Both the position numbers and the translations under genes were made by a program. From IMG/VR virus record IMGVR_UViG_3300045926_000229, positions 1-44,475 of that record: a stretch of 44,475 nt of DNA; one strand, written 5' to 3'. The DNA comes from a virus. The notes under the pieces were generated by a model. That model was not told the origin of the DNA, ran no database searches, and saw nothing but the letters and a program-made list of their open reading frames with translations. Positions 9,043-44,385 of this stretch are shown piece by piece. Position 1 is the first letter of the stretch. Each line of letters starts with the position of its first letter.

Positions 9043-10581
9043 GTGCGTGACATTCCCTACCAGCGCTTCGCGGGAAGCGTGGCGGCGTTCGGCGCCTATG
9101 GCGCGCCGTCGTTCGCCGGCTACCGCGTGAGCGGTCGACTCGCGCTCCTCGTCGGCCTTCTCGCCGTCGTCGGAGCGCTCTACTTCCTCGGCGCGATCGG
9201 GCCCGAAGGCGTCGCCTACGCTGGCGTCGCGGCGGTTCCGCTCGGCGCCGGCGCATCGAAGCGCGAAGAGGCGCTCGCGAAGCTCCTCGAAGCGAAGGCG
9301 CTCGTCGGCGAGGACGATACGGTCTCGCCGGAGAACGAGGAGTCCTTCGCCGCGCTTATGACCGAGTTCCGAGATCTCGACCGGGAGGCCGCGAAGATCG
9401 CCGGCCAGGACGAGAACATCGGCACCATGCGCGAGCGGTTGGAGTGGTACACCGGCCAGGCGACCGGAACGCCGCTCCGCTGGCAGCGGACGACGATCGA
9501 CGATACGTCGGCGCTCTCGCCAGGCGAGCAGTTCGTCCGGTCCGACGCCTATAAGGGCCTCGTCTCGTCCGGCGTTATCCAGACGCCGAACGGGAAGTTC
9601 CGGACGGATCCGGTCGTCGTCGGCCGGCCGATCCCGTCGCAGATCCAGGGCGCCGCGAGCGATATCATCCAGACCGAGAGCGGCGGGCCAGCTAACGCGC
9701 TCATCACGCCGTATCGCCTTCCGGGGATCCTCGGCTTGCAGCAGCGGCCGCTCACCGTCCGGGATCTCTTCCCGAACGAGAACATGACCTCGGGCGACAC
9801 GATCGAATACGCGCAGCAGTCCGGGTTCGATAACGCCGCGGCCGCGGTCGCTCAGGCGACGGCGACGAACGGCTCGGACGCGGCCGGCGGGCTTAAGCCT
9901 CAGTCCTCGATCGCATGGACCGAGGCGACGGCTCCCGCGCGCTGGATCGCTACCTACATGGTCGCGACCCGTCAGGCGCTCGCGGACGAGTCGCAGGTTC
10001 GCTCGCTGATCGATAACCAAGGCCGGCTGATGATCCGGCTCGAAGAGGAAGACCAGCTCGTCGCCGGAAACGGGACCGCTCCGAATATCTCGGGCATCCT
10101 CGACCAAAGCGGGCTGCAACTCCTCGACGTCTCGGCGTACTACGACGATAAGAACCTCGACGCGATCCGGACGGCTCGTCGCCTGGTCCGGACCGGGACG
10201 TCGCGGCTTCGCCCGTCGTTCGTCCTCGTCAATCCGATCGACTCGGAAGAGTTCGATCTCATGCAGGACAACGAAGGCCGCTACCGCGCTGGCGACCCGT
10301 TCGCCTCGATCATCGGGAATATCGACGACGCCGCGCCGATCTGGCGCCTCCGCCGAGTCGAGACCGAAGCGCTCGACGCCGGGACGGTTCTCGTCGGCGC
10401 GCGCGAGGGTGCGACCGTTTGGGATCGCCAGCCGTTGACGGTCCTCACGGCCGACCAGCACTCGGACTTCTTCGTCCGGAACCTCGTCGTTATCCTCTTC
10501 GAGGAGCGGCTCGCGTTCCCGATCTACTTCCCGACCGCGTTCGTGAAGATCACCCTCGACGACTGGACGGCCGGCTCCTAA
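9043..10581 (+). CDS. Major capsid protein, HK97 fold, with N-terminal hydrophobic segment
   Basis: 512 aa. Residues about 75-150 form the charged, helical delta/scaffold region (EEALAKLLEAKAL to FRDLDREAAK); the HK97 core follows with typical LRDLFPNE-like, ARWIATYMVATRQALADE (about 301-318) and FEERLAFPIYFPTAFVKI (about 486-503) segments. The odd part is residues about 30-65, a long uncharged hydrophobic run that looks like a membrane helix pair. The GTG start has a clear AAGGAG about 9 nt upstream, so the extension appears genuine. C-ending codons before A are commoner here than elsewhere, as expected for high expression. Confidence 0.9.
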   Translation: MRDIPYQRFAGSVAAFGAYGAPSFAGYRVSGRLALLVGLLAVVGALYFLGAIGPEGVAYAGVAAVPLGAGASKREEALAKLLEAKALVGEDDTVSPENEESFAALMTEFRDLDREAAKIAGQDENIGTMRERLEWYTGQATGTPLRWQRTTIDDTSALSPGEQFVRSDAYKGLVSSGVIQTPNGKFRTDPVVVGRPIPSQIQGAASDIIQTESGGPANALITPYRLPGILGLQQRPLTVRDLFPNENMTSGDTIEYAQQSGFDNAAAAVAQATATNGSDAAGGLKPQSSIAWTEATAPARWIATYMVATRQALADESQVRSLIDNQGRLMIRLEEEDQLVAGNGTAPNISGILDQSGLQLLDVSAYYDDKNLDAIRTARRLVRTGTSRLRPSFVLVNPIDSEEFDLMQDNEGRYRAGDPFASIIGNIDDAAPIWRLRRVETEALDAGTVLVGAREGATVWDRQPLTVLTADQHSDFFVRNLVVILFEERLAFPIYFPTAFVKITLDDWTAGS

Positions 10582-11478: not shown

Positions 11479-11870
11479 GTTTCACCGGGCGCCTAATCCA
11501 TCGCCTCGCGATCGTCGTCGACGGCGCCGGGGATCCGGAGGATCCGAACGACCTCGACGCGTACGGTCACGCCGAGGCGAACCCGCCGGTCGAGACGCTC
11601 GTATGGGGTCTCGTCCAACCGAGGACGGTCGAGGAGCTCCGGACGGTCTCTCAGGCGGGACCCGAGATCGGAGATCACGTCGTCTTCCTCGAACCGCGGA
11701 ACCTCCCGGCTAGCGCGTACCTCGTCGACGCCGACGAAGACGGCGCGCTCCCGACCGGCCGACGCTTCGATATCGTCGGCGTCCGCGACTTCGCCTTCGG
11801 CCGGACGCCTCACCTAGAGGTCGACGTCCGGCTAATCGGGCGCTCGGAGGCTCCCTCGACGGGATCGTGA
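11475..11870 (+). CDS. Head closure / head-tail adaptor protein
   Basis: 131 aa, mostly beta-stranded: LIHRLAIVVDG at the N-terminus, EIGDHVVFLEPRNLPASAYLVD in the middle and a final HLEVDVRLIG strand, the outline of SPP1 gp16/HK97 gp7-type closure proteins. The GTG start overlaps the connector stop and its TGA overlaps the GTG of the tagD-like gene, so the glycan island begins without any gap. The function is assigned mainly from order in the head-tail block. Confidence 0.6.
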   Translation: MSFTGRLIHRLAIVVDGAGDPEDPNDLDAYGHAEANPPVETLVWGLVQPRTVEELRTVSQAGPEIGDHVVFLEPRNLPASAYLVDADEDGALPTGRRFDIVGVRDFAFGRTPHLEVDVRLIGRSEAPSTGS

Positions 11871-12319
11871 ACGGTCGCCGGGTCGTCTATACCGGCGGGA
11901 CCTTCGACCTCCTCCACGTCGGACATATCGAGCTCCTCCGCGGCTGTCGAGCGCTGGCCGGCTTCGGCGGGCTCGTCGTCGCCTCGGCGAATACCGACGA
12001 GTTCGTCGAGCGCTACAAGGGTCGGCGTCCGACGTACCCTCTCGCCGAACGGCTAGAGATCCTCCGGTCGATCCGCTACGTCGACGTCGTCGTCGTTAAC
12101 GTCGGCGACGAGGACTCGCGGCCGGCGATCGAGGCGAGCGGCGCGACGCTCCTCGCGATCGGCGACGACTGGCTCGATCGGGAGGCCGCGGATCCGGAAG
12201 CGCGCTACCGCGCGCAACTCGGCGTCTCGCGCGACTGGCTCCTAGAACGGCGCCTCCGGATCGAGTACATTCCTCGTACTCGCGGAAGGGCGAGTTCGGA
12301 GATACGGAAGGAGCTCTAG
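11867..12319 (+). CDS. tagD: Glycerol-3-phosphate cytidylyltransferase (TagD-like)
   Basis: Would make CDP-glycerol from CTP and glycerol 3-phosphate, the activated precursor of teichoic acids. The 150-aa protein matches the family from end to end: GTFDLLHVGH (about 10-19) with the HxGH nucleotide site, TDEFVERYKGRRPTYPLAER (about 44-63), IGDDW (about 98-102) and the closing RTRGRASSEI (about 137-146), equal to the RTxGxSTTxI signature. All expected catalytic residues are present. GTG start, GTGA overlap upstream; the following GT starts right after its stop. Another CDP-alcohol cannot be excluded. Confidence 0.88.
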   Translation: MNGRRVVYTGGTFDLLHVGHIELLRGCRALAGFGGLVVASANTDEFVERYKGRRPTYPLAERLEILRSIRYVDVVVVNVGDEDSRPAIEASGATLLAIGDDWLDREAADPEARYRAQLGVSRDWLLERRLRIEYIPRTRGRASSEIRKEL

Positions 12320-13021
12320 GTGTTCTCGATCCTGGTCCCGTCGCGCGGCCGTCCGGAGCGCGCCGCGGCGATGGTCCGAAGCGTCTTCGCGACCCGAAGG
12401 CGCGTTCCCGTCGAGGTCGTCGTCATCGTCGACGACGACGACCCGAAAGCGGAGGAGTACCTCCGCCTCCTCCCTGGTCGAGTCCGGCTCTTAACCGAGC
12501 GGATCGGCTACTCGGCTTCGCTAAACCTCGTCGCGCGGGAGCTCCTCGGCGACCCGCGGAACCTCGTCTTCGGCGCGTTCGGCGACGACGTTCTCTTCCG
12601 CACGGAGGGATGGGATCGCCTGGTCGCGCGGGCACTTGCGCGACCAGGCATCGCCTACGGTAACGATCTCGTCCACGCCGCGGGCCATCCGACGGCGGTA
12701 TGGATGAGCCGCGAGATCGTCGAGGCGCTCGGCTGGCTGGCGCTCCCTACGTCGTGGCATCTGTGGGTAGACGACGCGTGGAAGAGGCTAGGGCAGGAGA
12801 CCGGGACCCTTCGCTACCTCCCGAACGTCGTCGTCGAGCATATGCACCCGGCGGTCGGGAAGGCCGATATGGACGAGACCTACCGCGAGGTGTACGACGC
12901 CGATCGCGGGCACCGCGATCATCTAGCCTTCCTCGCGTGGGAAGAGAGCGGTCTCGCCGGCGACGCCGCGAAGGTCCGGATGGCGCTCTCGAAGTTCTCG
13001 CGGGAGTTCCGCCGTGCATGA
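12320..13021 (+). CDS. Glycosyltransferase family 2-like (GT-A)
   Basis: 233 aa. It begins with the GT2 beta-alpha unit FSILVPSRGRP (about 2-12), then VVIVDDDDP (about 34-42), a metal-binding GDD (about 89-91) and a second acidic WHLWVDDAW (about 150-158), with VVVEHMHP near 175 as in phage GT2 proteins. It should transfer a sugar from a nucleotide-sugar, acting in the cytoplasm. The GTG directly follows the tagD-like stop, and AAGGAG (12308-12313) within tagD serves as ribosome-binding site. Donor and acceptor are unknown. Confidence 0.78.
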   Translation: MFSILVPSRGRPERAAAMVRSVFATRRRVPVEVVVIVDDDDPKAEEYLRLLPGRVRLLTERIGYSASLNLVARELLGDPRNLVFGAFGDDVLFRTEGWDRLVARALARPGIAYGNDLVHAAGHPTAVWMSREIVEALGWLALPTSWHLWVDDAWKRLGQETGTLRYLPNVVVEHMHPAVGKADMDETYREVYDADRGHRDHLAFLAWEESGLAGDAAKVRMALSKFSREFRRA

Positions 13022-13490
13022 CTCCGTAATGGCGTGGATCGCCGACCAGGTCGAGCGCTTCGAGCTCGCTGGCCGACCCGCTCTCGAAGTCGGGTCGCTC
13101 GACGTTAACGGCTCGGTCCGGTCGCTCTTCGCCGGCGACTATATCGGGATCGATATGCGCGACGGACCAGGCGTCGATATCGTCGGCCTTGCGTCCGACC
13201 TTCCGTTCCGCGACGCGGCGTTCGAGGTCGTCGTTACGACCGAGACCTTCGAGCATGACCCGTCCTTCTGGCGGTCGCTCGACGAGATCCGTCGCGTCCT
13301 CGTCCGCGGCGGGCACCTTCTCATTACGACGCGCGGGAACGGCTTCGGCGAGCATTTCGAGCCGAACGACTACTTCCGGTTCATGCCGAACGCGCGCGGC
13401 CTTCTCCTCGATCTCGCCGGCTGCGACCTCGTCGAGGAGGCGCTCGACCCGGAGGTTCCGGGGATCTTCGTTCACGGCGTCCGACGGTGA
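13014..13490 (+). CDS. SAM-dependent methyltransferase (class I, small-molecule type)
   Basis: 158 aa with the order of a Methyltransf_11-type fold: PALEVGSLDVNG (about 22-33, glycine motif I, somewhat degenerate), YIGIDMRDGPGVD (motif II acidic residue), ASDLPFRDAAFEVVVTTETFEH (motif IV/V region) and RRVLVRGGHLLITT (about 92-105). It lacks the NPPY/DPPY or PCQ motifs of DNA methyltransferases, so a sugar or other small acceptor is more likely. O-methylation of a glycan would suit its neighbours. The GTG start overlaps the upstream gene by 8 nt. Confidence 0.75.
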   Translation: MHDSVMAWIADQVERFELAGRPALEVGSLDVNGSVRSLFAGDYIGIDMRDGPGVDIVGLASDLPFRDAAFEVVVTTETFEHDPSFWRSLDEIRRVLVRGGHLLITTRGNGFGEHFEPNDYFRFMPNARGLLLDLAGCDLVEEALDPEVPGIFVHGVRR

Positions 13491-14158
13491 GGACCCTCGT
13501 CGCGATCCCGACCCGGTACGAGCCGGAGCGGGTCCTCTCGCTGGTCTACGCCGTCCTCGCCGAACCGAGAACCTCCGTCCTCCTCCTCGATAACGGGCAT
13601 TCGCCGGCGCTCGTCGAGCGGATCGACCTCTCGTACGTCGAGGTCCGCTCGACGCCGGAGCTCGGGATCTACGAAATGTGGAACGAGGCGGTCCGCGTCG
13701 CCGAGGACCGCGCCGTCGACGTCCTGGTCCTCTTAAACGACGACGTTCGGATCCGGACGGGAACGATCGGGATCCTCGCCGACGTCCTCCGGAACCATCC
13801 GGAGGTCGGCGTCGCCTGTCCGGACTGGCCTACGCCGCTCGACCGCGGGATCCCGGACCGGATCGCGCTCCGCCGGGTCGGAGGCGCCGGCGCTCACGAA
13901 GGGATGACCGGGTTCTGCTTCGCGATGCGCGTCGGGCTCCCGGTCCGCTTCGATACCCGCTTCGGATGGTGGTACGGCGACGATATGTTCGCTCGCCTGG
14001 TCCTCGCGGCCGGCTACCGGATCGTCCGGGTCGAGGGTCTCCCGATCGAGCATGACTCGGACGCCGAGCGTAACGGATGGGCCCGCCGGCCGGAGCTCGA
14101 AGCGATCGCCGCGAAGGACGGGATCCTATGGAACCAGCTAACGGACGAGAACCGATGA
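13487..14158 (+). CDS. Glycosyltransferase family 2-like (GT-A)
   Basis: 223 aa. LVAIPTRYEPERV at the N-terminus, the SVLLLDNGHS strand (about 28-37), ELGIYEMWNEA (about 54-64), the DxD-like LLNDDVRI (about 83-90), GMTGFCFAMR (about 142-151) and FGWWYGDDMFARL (about 161-173), which is the typical acceptor-side WxGDD motif of phage and capsule GT2 enzymes. GTGA overlap with the methyltransferase and ATGA overlap with the next gene, so strictly co-translated. Substrates unknown. Confidence 0.8.
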   Translation: MRTLVAIPTRYEPERVLSLVYAVLAEPRTSVLLLDNGHSPALVERIDLSYVEVRSTPELGIYEMWNEAVRVAEDRAVDVLVLLNDDVRIRTGTIGILADVLRNHPEVGVACPDWPTPLDRGIPDRIALRRVGGAGAHEGMTGFCFAMRVGLPVRFDTRFGWWYGDDMFARLVLAAGYRIVRVEGLPIEHDSDAERNGWARRPELEAIAAKDGILWNQLTDENR

Positions 14159-15723
14159 GAGTCGTCTTCCTGGTCCCGCGACGTGAGGACGGAGGTCCGC
14201 GAGATCGCCTATGGACCTACGCTCGCGCGCGCTGGTCCGCGCTCTTCCCGGACTGGCCGATCTACGAAGGGCACCATACCGAGGGCCTCTTTAACCGATC
14301 GGCGGCGATGAACCTCGCGTCGGACCTAGCCGACGAGGACGGACCGTGGGATATCGCGCTCGCGATCGACGCCGACGTCTTCCTCCGGAAGTCGTTCGTC
14401 GAGAAGGCGGTCGAGCGAGCCGCCGAGACCGGCCTCGTCGTATGGCCGCACCGGCGATGGCGCGGTCTCGACGAGGTCTCGACGCGCCGCGTCGTCGACG
14501 ATCGGCGGGACTTCGGGCCCGAGATCGATCGCGAGGATATGGACCTCCTCGTCGAGCGGACGAACCCGCTCTCCTGGTCCTGCTGCATCGCGATCCCGCG
14601 CGCGGCGTGGGACCGGCTCGGCGGCTTCGACGAGCGGTTCCGCGGGTGGGGTTGGGAGGATATGGCCTTTCAATGTGCGGTCGTCGGCCTGGTCGGCTAC
14701 GAACGCCTCGACTCGGACGTTTACCACCTCTGGCACCCGCGGAGCGAGGAGCGGATCGAGAAGGGTAAGCCGGCCGAGACGGCGAACGCCGCTTACCTCG
14801 ATAACGGGCGCCTCGGCCGGCGCTATATGGTCGCGCTCCGGCGAGACCATAACCAGCACGATCGACCGACGGATCCCGACGAGGCCGAGCGAGAGCGAGA
14901 TATCGCGAACCTCCGGAAGGACGAGCAGCGCTTCGAGACGCTCGCGCGCCGCGCTGGCCTCCCGGCGTGGCGCGATTGGTGGCCGACCCTCGACGAGCTC
15001 GTCGAGGGAGCGAAGGCCGCGCGCGGAGGCGACGAGGCGTCCTCGATCGCCGTTATCGTCCGGACCGGAGGCGAGCCGGACGTATGGGAGGACCGGCGGG
15101 AATATCTCCGTCGCTCGCTCGCGTCGTTGACGGAGAGGGTCTCCGGACCGATTACGCGCCGGGTCGTCTATTCGGACTGGTCCGACGAGTTCCGACCGGA
15201 GGTCGAGACGATCGCGAAGGAGTTCGGGTTCTACGTCGCCGGCGAAGGGCACCACGGCTATACGAAGGCGGTCTCGCGCCTGTGGAGCTATATCGACCGG
15301 CGCGTTACCGAGCCGTTCGTCTTCCTGGTCGAGGACGACTTCCTCTACCTCCGCGACGTCGACCTCGCGCCGATGATCGAGACCGTCCGGCGCTCGGCGA
15401 GGACGAAGCAAGTCGCGCTCCTCCGAGGACCCGTCTTCGACCGAGAGTTCGACCTCGGCCTCCTCGGCTGGCCGGAGGACGACTTCGAGCTCGTCGACGA
15501 GGGAACCGACCGCGAGCGGCTCGAACATCGCCTCTTCTGGACGATGAACCCGAGCGTCTTCCGGCGGGAGCTCGTCCGTACGCCGTGGCCGCTCGTCCAT
15601 TCCTCGGAACGTCGGTTCGGCGACCTCCTCCTCCGGGACCAGGACGCGCGGTTCGCGCTCCGGGGATCCGGCGAGGCGTGGATCGAGCATATCGGCGAGG
15701 TCCGCTCGACGAGTGCCTACTAG
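14155..15723 (+). CDS. Two-domain glycosyltransferase
   Basis: 522 aa, twice the size of its neighbours. Domain 1 (about 1-250) has LVPRREDGGPR, the DxD in AIDADVFLRKSF (about 74-85), and GGFDERFRGWGWEDMAFQ (about 157-174), as in the galactosyltransferase-type C-terminal motif. A charged linker (about 240-300) leads to domain 2, with SSIAVIVRTGGEP (about 302-314), RRSLASLTERV, a DxD-like FLVEDDFLYL (about 389-398) and WTMNPSVFRRELV (about 462-474). Two active sites suggest two consecutive sugar transfers or a repeating disaccharide. The ATG at 14155 gives the ATGA overlap; a longer upstream frame is spurious. Confidence 0.78.
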   Translation: MRVVFLVPRREDGGPRDRLWTYARARWSALFPDWPIYEGHHTEGLFNRSAAMNLASDLADEDGPWDIALAIDADVFLRKSFVEKAVERAAETGLVVWPHRRWRGLDEVSTRRVVDDRRDFGPEIDREDMDLLVERTNPLSWSCCIAIPRAAWDRLGGFDERFRGWGWEDMAFQCAVVGLVGYERLDSDVYHLWHPRSEERIEKGKPAETANAAYLDNGRLGRRYMVALRRDHNQHDRPTDPDEAERERDIANLRKDEQRFETLARRAGLPAWRDWWPTLDELVEGAKAARGGDEASSIAVIVRTGGEPDVWEDRREYLRRSLASLTERVSGPITRRVVYSDWSDEFRPEVETIAKEFGFYVAGEGHHGYTKAVSRLWSYIDRRVTEPFVFLVEDDFLYLRDVDLAPMIETVRRSARTKQVALLRGPVFDREFDLGLLGWPEDDFELVDEGTDRERLEHRLFWTMNPSVFRRELVRTPWPLVHSSERRFGDLLLRDQDARFALRGSGEAWIEHIGEVRSTSAY

Positions 15724-16738
15724 CCTCGACGCGCTCTCCTTCGAGTCGCACTTCCTCGACCATATTCGGCCGGTATGGCGCGAGCTCCGGAAGCGGAACC
15801 TCGCCGGCCGGCTGGTCGTCGAGCGGACCCTCGTCGATCGCGCGGAGGGATACGGCTTCGGCGATCTCGACGTATACGACGCCGTCGAGGTCCGACGGAG
15901 GGAGCGCTATCCGGAACCTCGACCAGGCGACGGACCGACGGCGCTCGTCGCCTCCTACGGCGATATCAAGCTCGGTCGGCGACTCGGCTATCGGAACTTC
16001 GTCTTCCTCGAACATGGCGCCGGCCAGTCGTACGAAGGCGACCGTCGACAGACGCGGCACCCGTCCTACGCCGGCGGGATCGATCGCGAGGACGTCGCGC
16101 TCTTCCTGGTCCCGAACGAATACTCGGCGAAGCGCTGGCGCGCGGCGTATCCCGCGGTCCGGACGGAGATCGTCGGGTCGCCGAAGCTCGACGACCTACC
16201 GGCGCGCGGGCCGGGGCCTCGGCCTACGGTCGCGGTCTCGTTTCATTGGGACTCGTCGATCATCCCGGAGATCCGCTCCGCGCTCGGGCACTACCGAGCG
16301 GTCCTCCCGGCGCTGGCCGAGCGGTTCGCCGTGATCGGTCACGGGCACCCGCGCGCGTACGAGCTCGCGCGGGTCTATCGCCGGCTCGGGATCGAATACG
16401 TCCCGGAGTTCGAGGAGGTCTGCCGGCGCGCCGACGTCTACGCGTGCGATAACTCGTCGACCCTCTTCGAGTTCGCGGCGCTCGATCGGCCGGTCGTCGT
16501 CCTGAATGCTCCCTGGTATCGACGGAACGTCGAGCACGGCCTCCGGTTCTGGGAGGCGCGGAGTATCGGCGTGAACGTCGACGAACCGGCCTACCTCGCC
16601 GACGGCGTCGCCTACGCGCTCGAAGACGACGCTATCGCGCGACGAGCGAGGGAGAAGGCGCTCCGGCTGGTGTATACCTATCGGAGCGGCGGAGCCGTCC
16701 GAGCCGCGGACGCGATCGCCGAGTTCCTCGGAGGGTAG
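15713..16738 (+). CDS. CDP-glycerol glycerophosphotransferase-like (TagB/TagF family)
   Basis: 341 aa, GT-B fold. Recognised by FLEHGAGQSY (about 98-107), holding the catalytic-type His-Gly, the inter-domain VGSPKLDDL (about 154-162), IGHGHPR (about 206-212), and the nucleotide-binding DNSSTLFEFAALDRPVVVLN (about 246-265). Family enzymes transfer glycerol phosphate from CDP-glycerol, which the TagD-like enzyme 3.5 kb upstream could supply. It is shorter than cellular TagB (about 380 aa) and lacks an obvious membrane anchor. It overlaps the glycosyltransferase by 11 nt and closes the island, 4 nt before a tail gene. Confidence 0.82.
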   Translation: MPTSLDALSFESHFLDHIRPVWRELRKRNLAGRLVVERTLVDRAEGYGFGDLDVYDAVEVRRRERYPEPRPGDGPTALVASYGDIKLGRRLGYRNFVFLEHGAGQSYEGDRRQTRHPSYAGGIDREDVALFLVPNEYSAKRWRAAYPAVRTEIVGSPKLDDLPARGPGPRPTVAVSFHWDSSIIPEIRSALGHYRAVLPALAERFAVIGHGHPRAYELARVYRRLGIEYVPEFEEVCRRADVYACDNSSTLFEFAALDRPVVVLNAPWYRRNVEHGLRFWEARSIGVNVDEPAYLADGVAYALEDDAIARRAREKALRLVYTYRSGGAVRAADAIAEFLGG

Positions 16739-19794: not shown

Positions 19795-22680
19795 GTGAAT
19801 ATCGGCGACCTAATCTTTAACCTCCTCGCCGACGGCTCGAAGCTCGAAGCCGACGTAACGCGCCAGGCGCAAGCGGCCGGAGATAAGGCCGGCGCGAAGG
19901 CCGGAACGACGCTCGGGAACCGCATGTCGCAGACCGCCTCGCGCGGCCTAACCGCGCTCGGCGCGGCTTCCGGCGTCGTCTTCGCCGGCGCGGTCGAGTC
20001 CGGCGCGGCGTTCGAGGACCAGCTTCGGACGATTAACACGGTCGCCGGCCTCTCGGACGAGCAGCTATCGAAGGTCGGCGACGATATCCAAGCGCTCTCT
20101 CGCGAGACCGGGAAGACGACCGACGACCTAACGGCCGGGTTCTACGATCTCGTCTCCGCTGGCGTCGACGCCGACGACGCGATCGGAGTCCTCCGCGACT
20201 CGGCGATCTTCGCGACTGGCGCGCTCGGCTCGACCGCACAGACGGTCGACCTCGTTACGTCCGTGATGAACGCGTACGGACTCGAAGCGAGCGAGTCGAC
20301 CAGGATTACGGACGTATTCGCGAAGGCGGTCGCCGACGGTAAGGTGACGGCCGCGCAGCTTGGCGACTCGATCGCTCAGATCGCGCCGATCGCGAGCTCG
20401 GCCGGGATCTCGATCGAGGAGGTCTCCTCCGGCTTCGCGGTCCTTACGGCGAAGGGCGTGCCCGCGTCCGAGGCGGCGACGCAGATGCAAGCCGCGATCC
20501 GGGCGCTGATTAAGCCGAACGAGGATCTAAACCGGATCCAGGAGCAGACCGGGATTAACTTCGCCGAGCTCGCTCGGGAGAAGGGTCTCGCCGTCGCGCT
20601 AGAGGAGCTCCGGCGCGTTACCGGCGGATCCGCCGAGGCGATGACGAACGCTCTCGGACGGACCGAGGCGTATCAGTTCGCGCTCGCGTCGACGGGCGAC
20701 CAGGCGGAGACGTTCGCTCAGCAGATCGTCGATACGGCGAACGAGTCCGGCCTCGCGCTAGAGCAATACGACGAGAAGTCGAAGTCGTCGGTCGAGCAGG
20801 GGAAGCGGTTCGCCGCGGTCCTAAACACGCTGGCGCAGGACTTCGGCGGAGCGTTCTCCGGGGCGGCGCCGTTCCTGGTCACGCTTAACCAACTCGGACC
20901 GGCGTTCCGTGGCCTTATCTCGCCGGCGAAGATCTTCGGCGGCGCGCTCGGCGGGATCGCCTCGAAGGGACTCCAACTCCTCGGAGGTCCGTTCGCGAAG
21001 CTCGGGCGAGGTCTCGCGCTAAAGCTCGCGGCCGGCCTCGGCTCGACGGCCGCTCAGGCGGCGATTACGAACGCCGTCGGCGAGACCGTCGGGAACTCGC
21101 TCTCGGCGCCTGGTCTAAAGGCGAAGCTCGGCGGGAAGCTCGGTCCGCTCGGGAAGTTCCTCGGCTCGGGTCTCGGGAAGGCGTTCTCGGTCGGGTTCGC
21201 GGCCGCGGCGGTCGTCGGCGTCGTCGAGACGTATAACCAGATCAAGGAGCAGACGGCCGCGCAGAACGCGCAGATCTCGGCCGACGTCGGGAACCAGATC
21301 AAGACCGGGACGGACGAGCAACTCGCGCAGACGAAGGCCGCGCTCGAAACGGGTCTCACTCAGCTAAACGGCGTCTGGGACGCCGGCCTCTTTACGAACG
21401 AGACGCGGGCGAAGCTGACGGCCGACCTCGACGCCGTTAACGCCGAGATGAGTAAGCGCGCCTCGACCGGCGCGACCGACGTCTCCGAGGCGTACCGGGA
21501 CGGCGCCGGCGTCGTGACGGCTGGCGCCGAAGATATGGTCGAAGGCGTTCCGGGAGCCGTCGAGGGAGTCGGTCCGGAGGCCGAGGCCGCTGCCGCCGGC
21601 CTCCCGGCCGACGTCGCGTCCGGGATCCGGTCCGCGCGTCAGGCTCCGATCGACGCGTTCGACCAGCTAAAGACCGACCTAGAGAACGCGATGACGCCGG
21701 CCGCGGAGCGGGCGCGCCTGGTCGGGCAGCTAACGTCGAAGGAGCTCGCGAAGGGTCTAAAGTCGGGCGACCCGGTCGTCCGCGCTCAGGCGCAAGCCGT
21801 TAAGGACTCGATCCTCCAACGGCTAAACGAGATCCCGGCGAAGGGGAACCAGGGAGGAAAGGCGACCTCCGAGGCGATCGCGAAGGGTCTCCGCTCGAAG
21901 AACCCGGCCATCCGCGCGGCCGCGCAGGAGGCGAAGGCGCTGATCGACGGTCAGATAAAGAAGATCCCGCCGGCCGCGAAGGACGCCGGCGAGAAGGGCG
22001 GTCGAGCGCTGGCGACCGGGATCAATAACACGCGGACGCAGTCCCGTGAGGCGGCGAACCGGACGAAGAACTCGATCCGCGACGGCTGGAATATCTCCGC
22101 CTCGGCGCGCGGATGGGGCGTCGCGACCGGCCGCGCGTACGGAAGCGGGATCCGGTCGACGGCGGGATGGATCCGTCAGGCCGCGGCGAACGCGCTCGCG
22201 GCCGCGAAGTCGATTATGGCGACGCACTCTCCGCCTGGTCCCGACTCGCCGCTTCACGATATCGTCGATTGGGCCCGCGAGACGATGCAGTTCTACGCCG
22301 GCGGGATCGAAGGCGAGGCGCCGACGGTCGCCGGCGCGGCGAAGGCCGCGCTCTCCGACGCCGCGGGAGTCCTCGCGGACGCGACCTTCGGGACGGCGGG
22401 GATCCGGACGCCGGCGATGCGCGCGATCGCGCCGGCGATCCCTGGTCTCCCGACGACCGTCTCGCCGGCGGCGCTGGCCGCGACCGCGGCCGCGGCTCCT
22501 CCCGGCCTAACGGGCGAGGCCGGCGCGAAGCATTATCACCTTCACGCGAAGGGAGCTCTCCCGGTCCGGACGATCCGGGACGTTCAGACGGAGCTCCGGC
22601 GGATCTCGGACTTCGACGAGATGCCGCCTCGGACCCTCGCGTCGAAGTACCGAAGGCGCGAAGCGGAGGAACCGGCCTAG
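19795..22680 (+). CDS. Tape measure protein
   Basis: 961 aa; sets tail length and enters the host envelope with the DNA. Residues about 40-290 are the TP901-type core (TTDDLTAGFYDLVSAGVDADDA, about 105-126; AQTVDLVTSVMNAYGLEASES; KGVPASEAATQMQAAIRAL). Hydrophobic Gly/Ala-rich segments around 375-475, including FSVGFAAAAVVGVV, may span a membrane. A repeat-like helical region (about 610-730) and a C-terminal part with ATHSPPGPDSPLHD (about 808-821) follow. GTG start 3 nt after the chaperone. The length would predict a tail of roughly 140 nm by the usual 0.15 nm per residue rule. Confidence 0.92.
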   Translation: MNIGDLIFNLLADGSKLEADVTRQAQAAGDKAGAKAGTTLGNRMSQTASRGLTALGAASGVVFAGAVESGAAFEDQLRTINTVAGLSDEQLSKVGDDIQALSRETGKTTDDLTAGFYDLVSAGVDADDAIGVLRDSAIFATGALGSTAQTVDLVTSVMNAYGLEASESTRITDVFAKAVADGKVTAAQLGDSIAQIAPIASSAGISIEEVSSGFAVLTAKGVPASEAATQMQAAIRALIKPNEDLNRIQEQTGINFAELAREKGLAVALEELRRVTGGSAEAMTNALGRTEAYQFALASTGDQAETFAQQIVDTANESGLALEQYDEKSKSSVEQGKRFAAVLNTLAQDFGGAFSGAAPFLVTLNQLGPAFRGLISPAKIFGGALGGIASKGLQLLGGPFAKLGRGLALKLAAGLGSTAAQAAITNAVGETVGNSLSAPGLKAKLGGKLGPLGKFLGSGLGKAFSVGFAAAAVVGVVETYNQIKEQTAAQNAQISADVGNQIKTGTDEQLAQTKAALETGLTQLNGVWDAGLFTNETRAKLTADLDAVNAEMSKRASTGATDVSEAYRDGAGVVTAGAEDMVEGVPGAVEGVGPEAEAAAAGLPADVASGIRSARQAPIDAFDQLKTDLENAMTPAAERARLVGQLTSKELAKGLKSGDPVVRAQAQAVKDSILQRLNEIPAKGNQGGKATSEAIAKGLRSKNPAIRAAAQEAKALIDGQIKKIPPAAKDAGEKGGRALATGINNTRTQSREAANRTKNSIRDGWNISASARGWGVATGRAYGSGIRSTAGWIRQAAANALAAAKSIMATHSPPGPDSPLHDIVDWARETMQFYAGGIEGEAPTVAGAAKAALSDAAGVLADATFGTAGIRTPAMRAIAPAIPGLPTTVSPAALAATAAAAPPGLTGEAGAKHYHLHAKGALPVRTIRDVQTELRRISDFDEMPPRTLASKYRRREAEEPA

Positions 22681-33618: not shown

Positions 33619-33797
33619 CGGTCGTTAAGTGCCCGCGCTGCGGGCGAGGTCTCTCGGCGAAGTATCGCCTCGCCGACTTTCACTTCCGGCGTGTTCGCCG
33701 GACCGGACCGCGGAAGGTCCGTCGCCGGAGCGCGACGTCGGCGCTCCTCTCCCGGCTGATCTGCGACTTCTCGCCGACTGGCGCGGTCCGGCCGTGA
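33615..33797 (+). CDS. Small CxxC protein
   Basis: 60 aa: KCPRCGRGL at the start (a zinc knuckle half-site), then a very basic stretch (about 20-47, many Arg) and LICDF near the end that could add a further Cys. GTG start in GTGA overlap, stop in GTGA overlap with the exonuclease gene. Possibly a nucleic acid binder; not recognised. Confidence 0.55.
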   Translation: MTVVKCPRCGRGLSAKYRLADFHFRRVRRTGPRKVRRRSATSALLSRLICDFSPTGAVRP

Positions 33798-34807
33798 TCG
33801 ACCGCGGAGCGTGGCTCGAAGCTCGACGGAAGGGTCTCGGCGGATCGGACGCCGCGGCGATCCTCGGCCTCTCCCGATACCGCTCGGCCGTCGACGTATG
33901 GGAGGACAAGCTCGGCCTGGTCGCCGAGCGGCCGCAGACGCCGGCTATGGCGTGGGGTCTCCGGCTCGAAGACGCGATCTCGACGGCCTTCGTCGAGACG
34001 ACCGGGATCCGGGTCCGAAAGGTTCCGGGGATCCGGCGAGCGAAGCACGTCCGCTCGTTCCCGATGATCGGCTCCCTCGACCGGCTGGCCGAGGACGGGA
34101 CGGTCGTCGAGCTAAAGAAGAAGCGGACCGATACCGACCTCTCCGAGTCGGGTCCTCCCGAGAAGCGGGTCCCGCCGGACTGGTACGTACAGGGCCAGCA
34201 CTACGCCGAGATCGTCGACGCTCCGACGATCCGCTACGCCGTCCTCGTCGGAGGGACGGACTTCCGGGTTATCGAGGTCCCGCGAGACCGCGACTTCGGA
34301 GCCGACCTCGTCGAGGAGGAGCGGAAGTTCTGGACGGAGTACGTCGAGACCGGCCAGCAACCGCCGGTCGGGCCCGACGACCTCGCCTACCTCTCGCGGA
34401 AGTATCCCGTCTCGCTCGACGAGGAGATCGTCGCGACGTCCGAGGTCCGGACGCTCGTCGACGCCTACCTCGCGGCCGTCGACGAGGTCGAGCGGTGGGA
34501 GGGTCTCCGGGACGGCTACCGCGCCTCGATCGAGGACTTCATGGGTACGGCGGCGAAGCTCGTCTCCGGCGTCGCCTCGGTCTCGTGGAAGGCGTACGAG
34601 CGGACGGATACGAAGTGGAAGGCGGTCGCCGAGGCGTATCGAGACGCGCTCGAAGCGATCGCTCGCGCCGAGGCGCGCGAGCTCGAACTCGGCGGGAAGA
34701 CGTTTATCTCGGACGAGATCGCGCCGGACCTTGACGCGATCCTCGAAGCGAACCGGACCGTCTCGACGGTTCGGCCGTTCCGGGTCGATCGGAAGAAGGA
34801 GGACTAG
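33794..34807 (+). CDS. YqaJ-family viral recombinase exonuclease
   Basis: 337 aa. Lambda-exonuclease-like 5'-3' nuclease that resects double-stranded ends for the RecT annealer. Visible: RRKGLGGSDAAAILGLSRY (about 11-29), WGLRLEDAI (about 54-62, catalytic Glu), GSLDRLAEDGTVVELKKKR (about 93-111) with the D...ExK metal site, and WYVQGQHYAEI (about 131-141). All core residues are present. A charged C-terminal part from about 220 may bind RecT. GTG in GTGA overlap. Confidence 0.9.
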   Translation: MIDRGAWLEARRKGLGGSDAAAILGLSRYRSAVDVWEDKLGLVAERPQTPAMAWGLRLEDAISTAFVETTGIRVRKVPGIRRAKHVRSFPMIGSLDRLAEDGTVVELKKKRTDTDLSESGPPEKRVPPDWYVQGQHYAEIVDAPTIRYAVLVGGTDFRVIEVPRDRDFGADLVEEERKFWTEYVETGQQPPVGPDDLAYLSRKYPVSLDEEIVATSEVRTLVDAYLAAVDEVERWEGLRDGYRASIEDFMGTAAKLVSGVASVSWKAYERTDTKWKAVAEAYRDALEAIARAEARELELGGKTFISDEIAPDLDAILEANRTVSTVRPFRVDRKKED

Positions 34808-34812
34808 GAAGG

Positions 34813-35250
34813 GTGGGATCTATCGAGACGGCGCTCGATCGCGCGATCGAGTCGCTCGTATACGAATACGTCGCCGAGCCGCCGGATCGCGTTCGCTTCG
34901 ACCAGCGGATCCGCGGGATCCTCGCCGCGATCGTCCGCGAGCGTTCGCGTCAGGAGGCAATCGGGATTATGAAGCGCGCGAGCGGGATCGACTGGCGCTC
35001 CTGCGCGGATCCCGCGATGGACGGCGGCGACTTCGCTCGGATAACCGTCCTCGGCGAGGAGTTCGGCGAGGCGTCGCGCGCGGTCCTCGAAACGACTTAC
35101 GCCGCGACGTGGAACCTCCGGGTCGCGTTCGAGGCCGACCTCCGGAAGGAGCTAATCGAGGTCGCGGCCGTGGCGGTCGCGTTCGTCGAGGCGATCGACG
35201 CTCGGAACGAAAGGAAGGAAGGAACCGATGCCAGCACGAACCCGGCCTAA
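34813..35250 (+). CDS. MazG-like nucleotide pyrophosphohydrolase domain protein
   Basis: 145 aa. The C-terminal half has the phage MazG-like pattern: VLGEEFGEASRAVLE (about 77-91), with the EExxE metal ligands partly as GEEFGE, and LRKELIEVAAVAVAFVEAID (about 109-128). Such enzymes hydrolyse (d)NTPs to monophosphates or act on alarmones; the helical repeat would make a dimer. The N-terminal half is helical and unassigned. The GTG start follows AGGAAGGG and the end overlaps recT by 23 nt. Confidence 0.75.
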   Translation: MGSIETALDRAIESLVYEYVAEPPDRVRFDQRIRGILAAIVRERSRQEAIGIMKRASGIDWRSCADPAMDGGDFARITVLGEEFGEASRAVLETTYAATWNLRVAFEADLRKELIEVAAVAVAFVEAIDARNERKEGTDASTNPA

Positions 35251-36361
35251 GCCGGACCAGGAACCGAAGTCGACGGCCGTCGCGGTCGTCGACCCGGCGA
35301 GGGAGCTCGTCTCCGCGGTCGAGTCGCGGCGACCGCAACTCGCGGCGCTCCTCTCGGTCGATCCGTCGACGGAGAAGGGGAAGGCGCTCCTCGATCGGTT
35401 CGTAACCGTGGCGCTTCACGCTGCGACCAGCCGTCCCGATATCCTCCGCGCGACGAAGGAGTCGATCGTCGAGGCGATCCGCGACTCGGCGATGCTCGGC
35501 CTCGAACCCGTCGGCGCGACCGGCGACGGGGCGATCATCGTTTACGACGAGAAGGTGAAGGCCGAGCGACCCGGCCGTCACGGCGGGACGATCGTCGTCG
35601 AGGAGCGGGTCCCGACCGCGCGCTTCGCGCCGATGTACCGCGGCCTCCTAAAGCTCGCTCGTCGGTCGGAGCAGATCGCGCATATCGACGCTCACGTCGT
35701 CTACCAGGGCGACGAGATCGAGCTCGACCTCGGCTCGAACCCGTTCGTTAAGCACTATCCCGTCCTCGACGGGTCGAAGCGCGGGAAGTACGTCGGCGCC
35801 TACGCCGTCGCGGAGCTCGTAAACGGGCGCCGCTACGTCGAGTGGATGACCGAGGCCGATATCGAGGTCGTCCGGAAGACGAGCCGCGCGAAGGACGCGA
35901 TGGCCTGGTCGGACTTCTGGCCGGAAATGGCGCGGAAGACGGTCCTTCGGCGGCTGATGAAGCGGCTCCCGCTCGAAACGCTGGCCGAACATGCGCTCCG
36001 GATCGAGAACGAAGCCGAGGAGCGCGCGATCGCGCCAGCGCTGGCGCCTCCGGAGGGATCGGACGCTCGTCGACGCCTCCGCTCGCGGTTCGAGCCGGAA
36101 CCCGCGAACGGCTCGCCTCCCGGCGAGGACGGGCCCGCCGAGCCGCCGGCCGTCGACGAGGCGAAGAAGGAGGCGGAACCGCCTACCGAGGCCGCTACGG
36201 GCGATCCTAGCGCGGCCGCGGCCGCGAACCAGCCGGAGGACGGCGAGGCGCGCGAGATCTGCGGCGCTCCGTCGCCGTATTCGGAAGGCGAGGTCTGCCG
36301 GCTCGAACCTCACGCGAAGGGTACGCCGCACCAGGCGGGCGAGAAGGAGTCTTGGCTATGA
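35228..36361 (+). CDS. recT: RecT-family single-strand annealing protein
   Basis: 377 aa. The annealing core spans about 20-265, with SMAVA-like DSAMLGLEPVGATGDGAIIVYDEK (the family DNA-binding turn, residues about 92-110), RFAPMYRGLLKLARRS (about 128-143), AHVVYQGDEIEL, and WSDFWPEMARKTVLRRLMKRLP (about 218-238), all typical. The C-terminal third is acidic, Pro/Ala-rich and ends with CGAPSPYSEGEVCRLEPHAKG, an extra Cys/His motif. It pairs with the YqaJ nuclease. ATG start behind AAGGAAGGAA. Confidence 0.92.
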   Translation: MPARTRPKPDQEPKSTAVAVVDPARELVSAVESRRPQLAALLSVDPSTEKGKALLDRFVTVALHAATSRPDILRATKESIVEAIRDSAMLGLEPVGATGDGAIIVYDEKVKAERPGRHGGTIVVEERVPTARFAPMYRGLLKLARRSEQIAHIDAHVVYQGDEIELDLGSNPFVKHYPVLDGSKRGKYVGAYAVAELVNGRRYVEWMTEADIEVVRKTSRAKDAMAWSDFWPEMARKTVLRRLMKRLPLETLAEHALRIENEAEERAIAPALAPPEGSDARRRLRSRFEPEPANGSPPGEDGPAEPPAVDEAKKEAEPPTEAATGDPSAAAAANQPEDGEAREICGAPSPYSEGEVCRLEPHAKGTPHQAGEKESWL

Positions 36362-39627: not shown

Positions 39628-39743
39628 AGAACGTCGTCCTAACGATCGAAGGCGCGATCGTCCTACTCGCGACCTATGTCGGCGGGTTCTGGGTCCTGGT
39701 CGGCTTAACGATCGCCGAGCGGATCGCTCGGCTCGTCCGATGA
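39624..39743 (+). CDS. Small single-span membrane protein (39 aa)
   Basis: GTG start behind GGAGGAAGG in GTGA overlap. The product has one long hydrophobic stretch (IVLLATYVGGFWVLVGLTI) and a short basic C-terminus. No family. The ATG of rusA overlaps its stop, so it may partly serve to couple rusA translation. Confidence 0.55.
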   Translation: MKNVVLTIEGAIVLLATYVGGFWVLVGLTIAERIARLVR

Positions 39744-40150
39744 TCCCGACTCGGCTCGAAGTCTCGCTCGTCGTCGACGGGATCCCTCCGTCGCCGAACG
39801 AGATGCGCCGGCGCCATTGGGGCGCGCGGGCGAAAGAGGCGCCAGTCTGGCGCCGAGCGGCCTATCTCGCGGCGTACGACGCGCTCCGATCGAGCGGCCT
39901 CGGCGATGCCTTCCCGCTCCGGAAGGCCGCGGTCGACCTCGTCTTCGTCTCGCCGGCGGCGCGCGGAGACCTCGATAACCTCGTCTCGTCGGCGAAGCCG
40001 ATCCTCGACGGGATCTCGCGCGGCCTCGGCGGACCAGGCGAGCGCGGACCGCTCCTTTACGACGACGGCGTCGGTTGCCTAGAAGTCCTTCGAGCTCGCT
40101 GGCGCCGCGGTCCGCGCGCCGCGGTCGAAGTTACCGTTCGGGAGGTCTAG
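39740..40150 (+). CDS. rusA: RusA-family Holliday junction resolvase
   Basis: 136 aa. Cuts four-way DNA junctions. Signature parts: PPSPNEMRRRHWG (about 13-25), then RGDLDNLVSSAKPILDGI (about 74-91) with the catalytic Asp residues, followed by the LYDDG (about 103-107) acidic site. All three conserved Asp positions seem present. ATGA overlap upstream. Fits the recombination set with YqaJ and RecT. Confidence 0.9.
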   Translation: MIPTRLEVSLVVDGIPPSPNEMRRRHWGARAKEAPVWRRAAYLAAYDALRSSGLGDAFPLRKAAVDLVFVSPAARGDLDNLVSSAKPILDGISRGLGGPGERGPLLYDDGVGCLEVLRARWRRGPRAAVEVTVREV

Positions 40151-40151
40151 C

Positions 40152-40250
40152 GTGGACGGAAAGCTCGCCGAGAAGGGTCTCGTCGTCGTCCTCTTCCTAA
40201 TGGCGCTCGCGACGCTGGTTATCGTCGCGCTCGACGGTCGGCTTCCGTGA
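40152..40250 (+). CDS. Small single-span membrane peptide (32 aa)
   Basis: GTG start 6 nt behind GGAGG (40141-40145). A short charged start (DGKLAEKG) is followed by VVVLFLMALATLVIVAL, one membrane span, and a basic end. TGA in GTGA overlap with the next membrane protein gene. It may be a partner of the membrane proteins that follow, two genes before the VUT transporter. Confidence 0.5.
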   Translation: MDGKLAEKGLVVVLFLMALATLVIVALDGRLP

Positions 40251-40534
40251 AAGCGATCCTCGTCGCGCACGGCGCGGACCTCGCGACGTTCCTCGTCGCG
40301 GTCGGCCTGGTCCGGGTTCCGATAGAGCTCGAAGTCAACCCGGCCGCGGTCCTCGCCTACTCGATCGCCGGCCTCGCCGGCGTCGCGGCCTATAAGGTCG
40401 GCCTGGTCGCCGTCCTCGCGGTCGCCTTCCGGCGGATCCGGACGAAGCCGAAGGCGCCGGCGATCGTCGTCGGAGCGGCCGTCGGAGCGGTAGGCGCGGC
40501 CGCTAATATCCTCGCGATCGCCTCGATCGGATAA
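40247..40534 (+). CDS. Membrane protein, three predicted spans
   Basis: 95 aa with hydrophobic segments at about 8-24, 34-63 (AVLAYSIAGLAGVAAYKVGL and following) and 72-94. I do not recognise it. Similar small membrane proteins stand before VUT-family genes in other phages, so it might assist transport, but this is inference from position. GTG start in GTGA overlap; 16-nt gap with AAGGAAGGAG to the VUT gene. Confidence 0.55.
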   Translation: MKAILVAHGADLATFLVAVGLVRVPIELEVNPAAVLAYSIAGLAGVAAYKVGLVAVLAVAFRRIRTKPKAPAIVVGAAVGAVGAAANILAIASIG

Positions 40535-40550: not shown

Positions 40551-41054
40551 GTGGGATCGGTTTACGTCGTCCTCTACCTCGCGGCGATCGTCGTCGCGAA
40601 CCTCCTCGTCGCGACCTACGGACCCGTCGCGGCGATCCCGGTCGCGTTCGTCTTCGTCGGGTTCGACCTCGTCTCGCGAGACGCGCTACACGATCTCTGG
40701 CGCGGCCGGACGCTATGGCCGCGGATGCTGGCGCTCGTCGCCGTCGGAGGCGCGCTCTCGTACGTCGTGAACGCCGACGCCGGCCGGATCGCGATCGCCT
40801 CGACGATCGCCTTCGCCGCTAGCGCTCTCGCCGACGCCGCGACGTATCACGTCCTCCGCCGCCGCCGCTTCCTCGAACGGGCGAACGGCTCGAACGTCGT
40901 CGGTGCGGCCGTCGACTCGCTCCTCTTCCCGACGATCGCCTTCGGCGCGATCCTCCCGGCGATCGTCCTCGGTCAGTTCGTCGCGAAGGTCGCCGGCGGC
41001 GCGCTTTGGGCCTACCTACTCCGGCCTCGACTCGTCCTCCGGCCGGCCGAATGA
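40551..41054 (+). CDS. VUT-family (YhhQ-type) queuosine precursor transporter
   Basis: 167 aa, about five hydrophobic spans. Recognised by the family stretches FVGFDLVSRDALHDLWRG (about 37-54), RIAIASTIAFAASALADAATY (about 84-104) and FLERANGSNVVGAAVDSLLFPTIAF (residues about 110-134). Family members import queuosine precursors such as preQ0 or preQ1. The gene is translationally coupled (ATGA) to the DpdA-like gene, which uses just such bases. GTG start behind AAGGAAGGAG. Shorter than YhhQ of Escherichia (about 220 aa) as usual in phages. Confidence 0.82.
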   Translation: MGSVYVVLYLAAIVVANLLVATYGPVAAIPVAFVFVGFDLVSRDALHDLWRGRTLWPRMLALVAVGGALSYVVNADAGRIAIASTIAFAASALADAATYHVLRRRRFLERANGSNVVGAAVDSLLFPTIAFGAILPAIVLGQFVAKVAGGALWAYLLRPRLVLRPAE

Positions 41055-41638
41055 TCTACCTCTCCGGGAAGGTCGTCGACGGCGTCCCGGCCATGATTAC
41101 GCCGGCGATGGGACACCAGCCGCGCGGGACGTGGGCCGCGGATACCGGATGCTTCGCGAACCCGGAGGCTCACGACGACGAGGTCTACCTCCGCTTCCTC
41201 GACGCTCGTCCGCGAGAGACCTGCCTCTTCGCGACCGCTCCCGACCGCTTCGGAGACGGGATCGCGACGCTCGCCGTCGCGAGGCCGATGCTTCCGCGGA
41301 TCCGCGAACTCGGCTTCCCGGCGGCGCTGGTCGCTCAGGCCGGGATGACGCCGGAGCTCGTACCGTGGGAAGACGTCGACGTCCTCTTCGTCGGAGGTCC
41401 GGACGCGTGGCAGCACTCGGAGGCGCTCCTCGTCCTGGTACGCGAGGCGAAGCGGCTCGGGAAGCGGATCCACGTCGGGCGCGTTAACGGCTTCCGGCGC
41501 TATCGGTGGGCGAAGGCGATCGGCGCCGAGTCGGCCGACGGGACGTTCCTCGCGTTCGGACCCGACGAGAACCTCCGCCGGCTGGCGCGCTGGCAGCAAC
41601 GCCTCGATAGCGAGCCGATCCTCCCGATCGGCGCCTAA
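41051..41638 (+). CDS. dpdA: DpdA-like DNA guanine transglycosylase
   Basis: 195 aa TIM-barrel protein related to tRNA-guanine transglycosylase; DpdA enzymes exchange guanine in DNA for a 7-deazaguanine such as preQ0. Visible: WAADTGCF (about 28-35), FATAPDRFGDG (about 59-69) with an invariant-type Asp, FPAALVAQAGM, VLFVGGPDAW (about 112-121), and HVGRVNGFRRYRWAKAIGAE (about 140-159) before SADGTFL. It is of the compact actinophage type and lacks the zinc site of bacterial TGT. ATGA overlap with the VUT gene. No FolE, QueD, QueE or QueC is found in the window, so the base must come from the host or from import. Confidence 0.83.
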   Translation: MIYLSGKVVDGVPAMITPAMGHQPRGTWAADTGCFANPEAHDDEVYLRFLDARPRETCLFATAPDRFGDGIATLAVARPMLPRIRELGFPAALVAQAGMTPELVPWEDVDVLFVGGPDAWQHSEALLVLVREAKRLGKRIHVGRVNGFRRYRWAKAIGAESADGTFLAFGPDENLRRLARWQQRLDSEPILPIGA

Positions 41639-44061: not shown

Positions 44062-44385
44062 TTGCCTAGGTCCGCGCCGAGGGCGTGCCTCGAACCAGCG
44101 TGCCCGAACCAGGCGGTAGAGCGAGGCCGCTGCGAGGCACATCGGCTATCGGCCTCGGCGAGGGGGGTCGGGAGGGTGCACAGGGGGGAGCGGGCTAGCG
44201 CGCTACCAGGCGCGCGGTGCGAGGCGTGCGGCTGTACGCGCCAGCTCCAACGCGATCACCGTATACCCGTATCCCTAGGGGGGCCCGACCATCCCTCGAA
44301 TAAACGTTGGCTATGCGATTGCGAAGACCATCGCTGCCATTCGCGCTTAGGACTTCGTCGATCGTCTTCGCGAGGCCGCTCGTAG
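44062..44385 (+). CDS. HNH endonuclease at the genome end
   Basis: 107 aa. An N-terminal zinc knuckle (CLEPACPNQAVERGRCEAH, about 9-27) and the HNH core: CEACGCTRQLQRDHRIPVSL (about 53-72) with the catalytic DH, GGPDHPSNKRWLC (Asn) and CEDHRCHSRLG (final His). HNH nucleases beside the terminase and the packaging site assist cos cleavage in many cos phages. TTG start at 44062; no nearby ATG or GTG fits the frame. More CpA/TpG than the phage average and several GGGGGG runs set it apart. Confidence 0.82.
   Translation: MPRSAPRACLEPACPNQAVERGRCEAHRLSASARGVGRVHRGERASALPGARCEACGCTRQLQRDHRIPVSLGGPDHPSNKRWLCDCEDHRCHSRLGLRRSSSRGRS

Follow-up and report, generated by a model that had tools for sequence, protein, structure and literature searches.

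The VUT and DpdA-like genes

We analysed a virus record of IMG/VR, hereafter the window, that comprises 44,475 bases (66–69% G+C, class "linear," perhaps incomplete) and whose matches to PHROG profiles mark it as a tailed phage (Table 1). Two of its genes are considered here: one for a membrane protein of the VUT family (Vut_1/COG1738/YhhQ-QPTR type), a predicted importer of 7-deazaguanine bases, and the next for a small DpdA-like protein of the TGT superfamily, predicted to be a base-exchange enzyme. The stop codon of the former and the start codon of the latter share an ATGA, an overlap that the earlier note had taken as coupling and that we read directly in the sequence; translational coupling of the second gene to the first is likely. 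The stretch AAGGAAGG precedes the VUT start codon, while for the DpdA-like gene the ATG was preferred over a longer TTG start at 41006, since the relatives begin near that ATG. Upstream in the same gene string lies a 95-aa membrane protein that had no match in Pfam or PHROG, and which we do not claim as part of the pair. The codon-position G+C of the VUT and DpdA-like genes follows the pattern of the terminase and head genes. An Rfam scan of the 38–42 kb stretch of the window found no preQ1 riboswitch and no other RNA, and at the gathering level no RNA was found in the window or in 12 related loci; a promoter scan was empty, and terminator-like matches were slightly more numerous than in shuffled sequence.

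Table 1. Features of the window, with the basis of each assignment
Feature	Position	Strand	Basis
TET-associated glycosyltransferase (TAGT)	1731-2621		PF20691, E 4e-29
Terminase	3349-5259		PHROG
Portal	5327-6700		PHROG
Protease	7775-9028		PHROG
Major head protein	9043-10581		PHROG
Run of sugar- and polymer-related genes (see text)	11867-16738		
Tape measure	19795-22680		PHROG
RecE-like gene	33629-34807		PHROG
RecT-like gene	35228-36361		PHROG
RusA-like gene	39740-40150		PHROG
95-aa membrane protein	40247..40534	+	hydropathy
VUT membrane protein, 167 aa, GTG start (predicted 7-deazaguanine base importer)	40551..41054	+	Pfam, PHROG
Small DpdA-like protein, 195 aa, ATG start, phrog_15826 (predicted base-exchange enzyme)	41051..41638	+	relatives, PHROG, profile, AF2
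ATGA start/stop overlap of the two genes	41051..41054	+	read directly
HNH endonuclease-like ORF	44062-44385		PF01844, at its cut-off

The VUT assignment made in the earlier note held when the protein was compared with Pfam Vut_1 (PF02592; E 3.2e-15, 57.2 bits against a cut-off of 27.2, with the profile covered almost fully) and with PHROG 4899 (phrog_4899; 1.2e-40), and a six-frame search of the window with Vut_1 gave 1.2e-16. Against the NCBIfam equivalog for the queuosine precursor transporter (TIGR00697) the protein reached 32.1 bits, below the cut-off of 50.95, so that we consider it a member of the wide family and not of the named equivalog. It aligns with the YhhQ of Escherichia coli, annotated as a "queuosine precursor transporter," with which it has the residues N, D, AS and D..F in common, and a simple hydropathy calculation indicated several strong membrane segments, where about six would be expected, the count being uncertain. 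According to the literature, the salvage of preQ0 and preQ1 in E. coli requires YhhQ and the usual role of COG1738 proteins concerns the queuosine of tRNA (PMC5372724), while other members of the family, as in Chlamydia, prefer queuine (PMC11130926). Since YhhQ and the Chlamydia members thus differ in the preferred base, preQ0, preQ1 and queuine are all candidate substrates of the window VUT.

Sequence and predicted structure of the DpdA-like protein

The second protein matched phrog_15826 (2e-52), and its relatives in named phages were those of Arthrobacter phages Aoka (52%) and Sonali (50%), Mycobacterium phage GreaseLightnin and its kin (49%) and Rhodococcus phage ReqiPine5 (47%), of which the Arthrobacter and Mycobacterium relatives (49–52%) carry the annotation "DpdA-like tRNA-guanine transglycosylase." No match was found in Pfam, NCBIfam, PADLOC or the PDB sequences, the last of which yielded nothing useful to either phmmer or profile searches. 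The bacterial DpdA models NF041059 of NCBIfam and DpdA of PADLOC were likewise unmatched, models that cover the phage DpdAs poorly, since the DpdA of phage CAjan itself falls far below the NCBIfam cut-off. A search of viral contigs with the single protein returned no relatives, and an alignment used as the query succeeded.

The ADTGCF, APDRFGD and GRVN motifs named in the earlier note were present in the ORF, and in an alignment of the window protein with 48 viral members D31, D65, Q96, GG115-116, H141, R144, N146 and D163 were invariant in all 49 rows; the catalytic Asp residues, whose absence the earlier note had proposed to look for by alignment, are thus in place (D31, D65 and D163). In a wider alignment 177 of 184 rows kept all five of D31, D65, Q96, H141 and D163, residues that align with the catalytic and base-binding positions of DpdA and TGT. 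The Asp residues of the D31 and D163 type we take to be the general acid/base and the nucleophile of TGT, and Q96 presumably matches its recognition Gln. Next to that Gln, at family position 97, 44 of the 49 rows have D and 4 have N, the window alone having A (A97, positions 41339-41341).

When compared by hhalign with a profile of the canonical phage DpdAs (CAjan, 9g, RHEph05, Brownie5, Typha, Sonali gp87; Rosebush-type), the small family aligned over 91 columns (E 7.5e-6, probability 84%), with its DTGCF, PDVVGD and GG paired to the DSGAF, LDVIGD and GG of the canonical enzymes, and phrog_15826 was also matched by two proteins of phrog_887, from the loci L163 and L140. A comparison with the PEAT2-type DpdA was weaker (E 9e-4) and placed D163 opposite the Asp of ADSTN, while that with tRNA-TGT was not significant (E 0.46), D163 there lying opposite the Asp of FDCVLPTR. 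The canonical counterparts of D31, D65, H141 and D163 are D63, D105, H187 and D206 of CAjan, the mapping of H141 and D163 being based on motif order and weak profile alignments. Since CAjan H187 corresponds to 9g H196, in a column that is invariant among the canonical DpdAs, H141 is, by motif order, the likely counterpart of the 9g His196, a residue described as conserved in DpdA and absent from DpdA2 (Hutinet 2019).

The AF2 model of the protein was a TIM barrel (pLDDT 96.0, pTM 0.91). Its best structural match by VIA was a TGT (Z 14.2, rmsd 2.8, 187 aligned), a rank that other TIM barrels tie, ribulose-phosphate epimerase (epimerase Z 13.7) and pyruvate kinase being nearly equal; hence the fold match of the predicted model does not set TGT apart from the other barrels. 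By Foldseek the solved DpdA 7ui4 appeared at rank 9 (E 2e-4).

Pairing of VUT and DpdA genes among the relatives

Among the best 80 of 565 viral relatives of the small DpdA, and with a VUT profile built from the window and seven named phages (a later profile added VUTs from the loci themselves), 61 loci had a VUT gene beside dpdA in the same orientation, either directly or at a distance of about one small gene; the addition of one truncated VUT brought the pairs to 62, of which 45 began with VUT and 17 with DpdA. By Pfam alone Vut_1 was found in 38 of 50 of these DpdA-first records, in 31 of them above the cut-off. Starting from VUT, in sets of the best 80 of 243 and the best 80 of 249 relatives, whose queries were built mainly from VUTs beside DpdA and which have some contigs in common with each other or with the first set, a gene of a DpdA family lay within 502 bp on the same strand in 77 and 67 of the 80, respectively. 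The partner was a small DpdA in 18 and 20 loci and the canonical type in 59 and 47, and all ten of the canonical partners sampled corresponded to the PHROG "queuine tRNA-ribosyltransferase." The same-strand pairs of the three sets were joined by NTGA junctions in 26/62, 53/77 and 42/67 cases.

As a control, 49 loci anchored on relatives of the window terminase (519,842 bases) contained a VUT, any DpdA or a que gene in none, and compared with the 61 in the best 80 of 565 this result indicates that the pairing exceeds chance; in the records of these terminase relatives, most of which are fragments, a small DpdA was likewise found in 0/49, a negative that carries little weight. Named phages exemplify both combinations: VUT with the canonical DpdA in PEAT2, Flyfo Tbat1_6, Opt-719 and Pam5, and with the small one in Aoka, GreaseLightnin and ReqiPine5. 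The pairing of VUT with DpdA is therefore systematic, occurring in many unrelated phages and with two DpdA families.

Genes for preQ0 synthesis and the supply of the base

The earlier note had seen no FolE, QueD, QueE or QueC gene in the window, and our searches bear this out: Pfam QueC, QueD, FolE and QueF found no match there under conditions in which the positive controls gave matches, nor did home-made profiles of QueC, QueD, QueE and FolE, the absence of QueE resting on the home-made profile. The whole records of PEAT2, Flyfo Tbat1_6, Pam5, Opt-719, Aoka, GreaseLightnin and ReqiPine5 had no QueC or QueD, whereas those of Sonali and CAjan score. In 58 viral records searched whole, QueC was above the cut-off in 10, QueD in 7 and FolE in 4, and the que-positive ones lacked VUT except for the near-identical L030, L031 and L033. 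In L071 and L088 queC-queE-queD directly precede dpdA, and in L090 queC directly follows it.

To tabulate this distribution we used 48 non-redundant viral loci flanked by 2 kb at both ends, rows with a shorter flank being dropped. VUT alone was present in 34, VUT with que genes in 1, que genes alone in 8 and neither in 5 (Fisher p 2.7e-5, kinship ignored), so that que genes stood beside the small dpdA in 8 of the 13 loci without VUT versus 1 of the 35 with it. With the isolate phages and bacterial contigs added (97 rows) the counts in the same order became 49, 1, 8 and 39, a weaker association (p 0.014). In a tree from which rows below 150 bits were left out, the 8 que-only rows occupied 8 separate places, although the well-supported branches force just 2 changes, for which reason the number of swaps is uncertain; an independent-pairs test had too few pairs. 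Beside the small DpdA family, then, genes for preQ0 synthesis often replace VUT in viral contigs. A general exclusion between VUT and synthesis genes we reject, since exclusion appears with the small DpdA only, the two occurring together with the canonical DpdA in CAjan and RHEph05; and a strict exclusion is also broken with the small DpdA, both in the lineage of L030, L031 and L033 and in L216, a locus of the VUT-first sets that unites VUT, a small DpdA and queD/queE/folE. In Seuratvirus, Vibrio and Rhizobium phages VUT coexists with synthesis genes or occurs in relatives of phages that have them, CAjan and RHEph05 being the examples demonstrated.

Several of these loci deserve separate mention. 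In L030, L031 and L033 the order at 5632-6659 is dpdA, a QueC-like gene and VUT, with QueD absent, an arrangement that suggests either the import of another precursor or a step that alters the base; a QueC-like gene also lies beside VUT in L138 and L172. The records L084 and L046 (the latter Arthrobacter phage Sonali) combine a small and a canonical DpdA beside preQ0 genes, perhaps reflecting two sequence specificities or two bases. In a well-supported actinomycete clade of 12 rows the small DpdA is accompanied by neither VUT nor que genes; the actinomycete contigs L265, L267, L271-L273, L276-L284, L286, L288 and L293, a bacterial branch of the family, are of this kind, and several of them carry a long DNA-methylase-like ORF near the small DpdA.

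With respect to the bacteria, 15 of 17 genomes bearing the pair were counted, L290 and L291 being left out because of a broken DpdA. Of these, 6 had a full-length QueC and 4 a TGT above the cut-off; 8 had neither one (Nonomuraea turkmeniaca, Microbacterium trichothecenolyticum, two Micromonospora, Planomonospora, Actinocrispum, Paractinoplanes and Longispora), absences that are provisional because the completeness of the genomes is unreported. Weak QueC matches, below 35 bits, were not scored as QueC. Those 8 would depend on an external source of the base, and a supply by the host cannot be assumed.

A proposed import-and-exchange pathway and its alternatives

We consider it probable that the VUT and DpdA-like genes form a minimal salvage-type cassette for the 7-deazaguanine modification of DNA, comprising import plus base exchange. 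As judged from its family, VUT would enter the host membrane during infection and import a base of the 7-deazaguanine kind (preQ0 or preQ1 being the likeliest), made by other organisms or by the host; the coupled DpdA-like enzyme would then exchange guanine in the phage DNA for the imported base by the TGT mechanism, in which conservation suggests D163 as the nucleophile, D31 as the general acid/base and D65 together with Q96 as the residues for base recognition. The modified DNA would finally resist host nucleases, as may be expected from DpdA phages studied elsewhere. This mechanism is the likely one for the two families to which the proteins belong. Against the reading stand the missing matches of the DpdA-like protein in Pfam, NCBIfam, PADLOC and the PDB sequences, its non-significant comparison with tRNA-TGT, a fold match shared with other TIM barrels, the weaker association in the 97 rows, the actinomycete clade that lacks both VUT and que genes, the phages that combine VUT with synthesis genes, and the unmodified DNA of phage Orion (Hutinet 2019). 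Where the earlier note had left the base to be either host-made or imported, the recurrent pairing and the replacement of VUT by synthesis genes strengthen the salvage idea, host-made and imported base both being candidate sources for this phage.

The pair could alternatively serve RNA, with VUT raising the precursor and the enzyme modifying tRNA or other RNA of the host or the phage and so tuning translation. That tRNA is the substrate of TGT-superfamily enzymes, that the family is annotated as a tRNA-guanine transglycosylase and that COG1738 proteins usually serve tRNA queuosine (PMC5372724) all speak for such a role; nevertheless, we regard it as improbable, because the residue pattern includes the His of the 9g H196 column, the profile is closer to the canonical phage DpdA than to tRNA-TGT, 8 of the 15 pair-bearing hosts lack TGT as well as full-length QueC, and a CAjan dpdA deletion lost its DNA modification (Hutinet 2019). 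Those same 8 hosts weigh against a different proposal, namely that DpdA uses a base made by the host, VUT being a bystander or a booster and not the main supply, and a bystander role would not explain why VUT is retained next to DpdA in 61 viral loci out of the best 80 of 565. Host-made preQ0 is nonetheless listed as an option for DpdA-only phages by Hutinet 2019, dADG amounts to about 0.13% of G in phage MED16, which has dpdA alone (PMC8306585), and full-length QueC is present in 6 of the 15 hosts; we hold this proposal, too, to be improbable. Finally, the protein would be another TIM barrel or a degenerate DpdA, placed beside VUT for historical reasons, only by a very slim chance: epimerase and pyruvate kinase do stand among the top VIA matches at nearly the same Z, and the window alone has A at position 97, but the five catalytic-type residues are invariant in 49/49 rows and VUT pairs with two DpdA families.

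Relation to known systems

The salvage cassette here favoured would add to the known DpdA system a variant of two genes that relies on import. Phages CAjan, Enterobacteria 9g and Mycobacterium Rosebush, which combine DpdA with full preQ0 synthesis, resemble the window in possessing a TGT-superfamily enzyme with motifs of the DSGAF, D, H and D types, and Escherichia phage CAjan furthermore has a VUT ("putative preQ0 transporter"); the window differs in lacking folE, queD and queC (by Pfam) and queE (by our own profile), and in that its enzyme has 195 instead of 306 aa and belongs to phrog_15826 instead of phrog_887. The DpdA-only phages (group 3 of Hutinet 2019, with Salmonella 7-11 and Mycobacterium Orion, and Pantoea MED16) likewise have no synthesis genes and must obtain the precursor from the host or the surroundings; in the accounts of these phages dpdA appears without a paired importer, whereas in the window the importer is coupled to it. 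Pantoea phage Vid5 and Enterobacter phage EC151 also encode Vut_1 proteins, proposed as salvage transporters (PMC6266253, PMC8310023), but these sit among synthesis genes, three of the four in Vid5 and all four in EC151, and the haloviruses HCTV-1 and HCTV-16 have YhhQ together with the pathway (PMC8651126). In the bacterial dpd islands (dpdA-K) DpdA inserts preQ0 in DNA, and about 9% of the islands contain YhhQ (PMC11888242); the window pair had no PADLOC match.

The salvage idea is itself long-standing: a phage transporter of preQ0 or preQ1 was proposed for Vid5 in 2018 (PMC6266253), Hutinet 2019 likewise proposed salvage, finding YhhQ uncorrelated with any phage group and the source of the precursor unclear for 76 DpdA-only phages, and a 2025 paper names import by YhhQ followed by exchange by DpdA as an option of the pathway (PMC11945000). 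Among the DpdA-only phages, Orion was unmodified in a host that lacks preQ0, and phage 7-11 had little dADG (Hutinet 2019). The available parts of PMC8265664 and PMC9837993 do not describe the VUT-DpdA pair, and in a literature search with many journals outside its reach we found no report of a systematic VUT-DpdA pairing or of a VUT/que swap. What is new here is thus the systematic linkage of VUT and DpdA across many viral lineages and the finding that que genes take the place of VUT next to the small DpdA, which together make the precursor source of the DpdA phages, and hence the salvage idea, directly testable. We tentatively suggest, as a possibility somewhat short of an even chance, a widespread and modular, import-only hypermodification of DNA, in which one small DpdA family would be supplied by either of two exchangeable neighbouring modules, VUT or the genes for preQ0 synthesis. 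If so, the DNA modification would depend on a micronutrient base from the surroundings, and the same phage would be modified or naked according to the microbial community around its host. Cultured phages that bear the pair include Arthrobacter phage Aoka, grown on A. globiformis, and Mycobacterium phage GreaseLightnin, grown on M. smegmatis mc2 155; as M. smegmatis has no preQ0 genes (Hutinet 2019), any modification of GreaseLightnin there would depend on added base.

Other features of the window

Between the head and tail genes of the window lies a run of genes resembling those of a cytidylyltransferase, three glycosyltransferases of the GT2/galactosyltransferase type, a methyltransferase and a CDP-glycerol glycerophosphotransferase, as if the phage built or decorated a glycopolymer. 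A search of the window with Tet_JBP gave no match, but neither did the positive control of that search, so that the negative does not establish absence; the TAGT gene listed in Table 1 makes a second modification possible, either of DNA or of virion proteins. The HNH endonuclease-like ORF is situated at the right end of the window.
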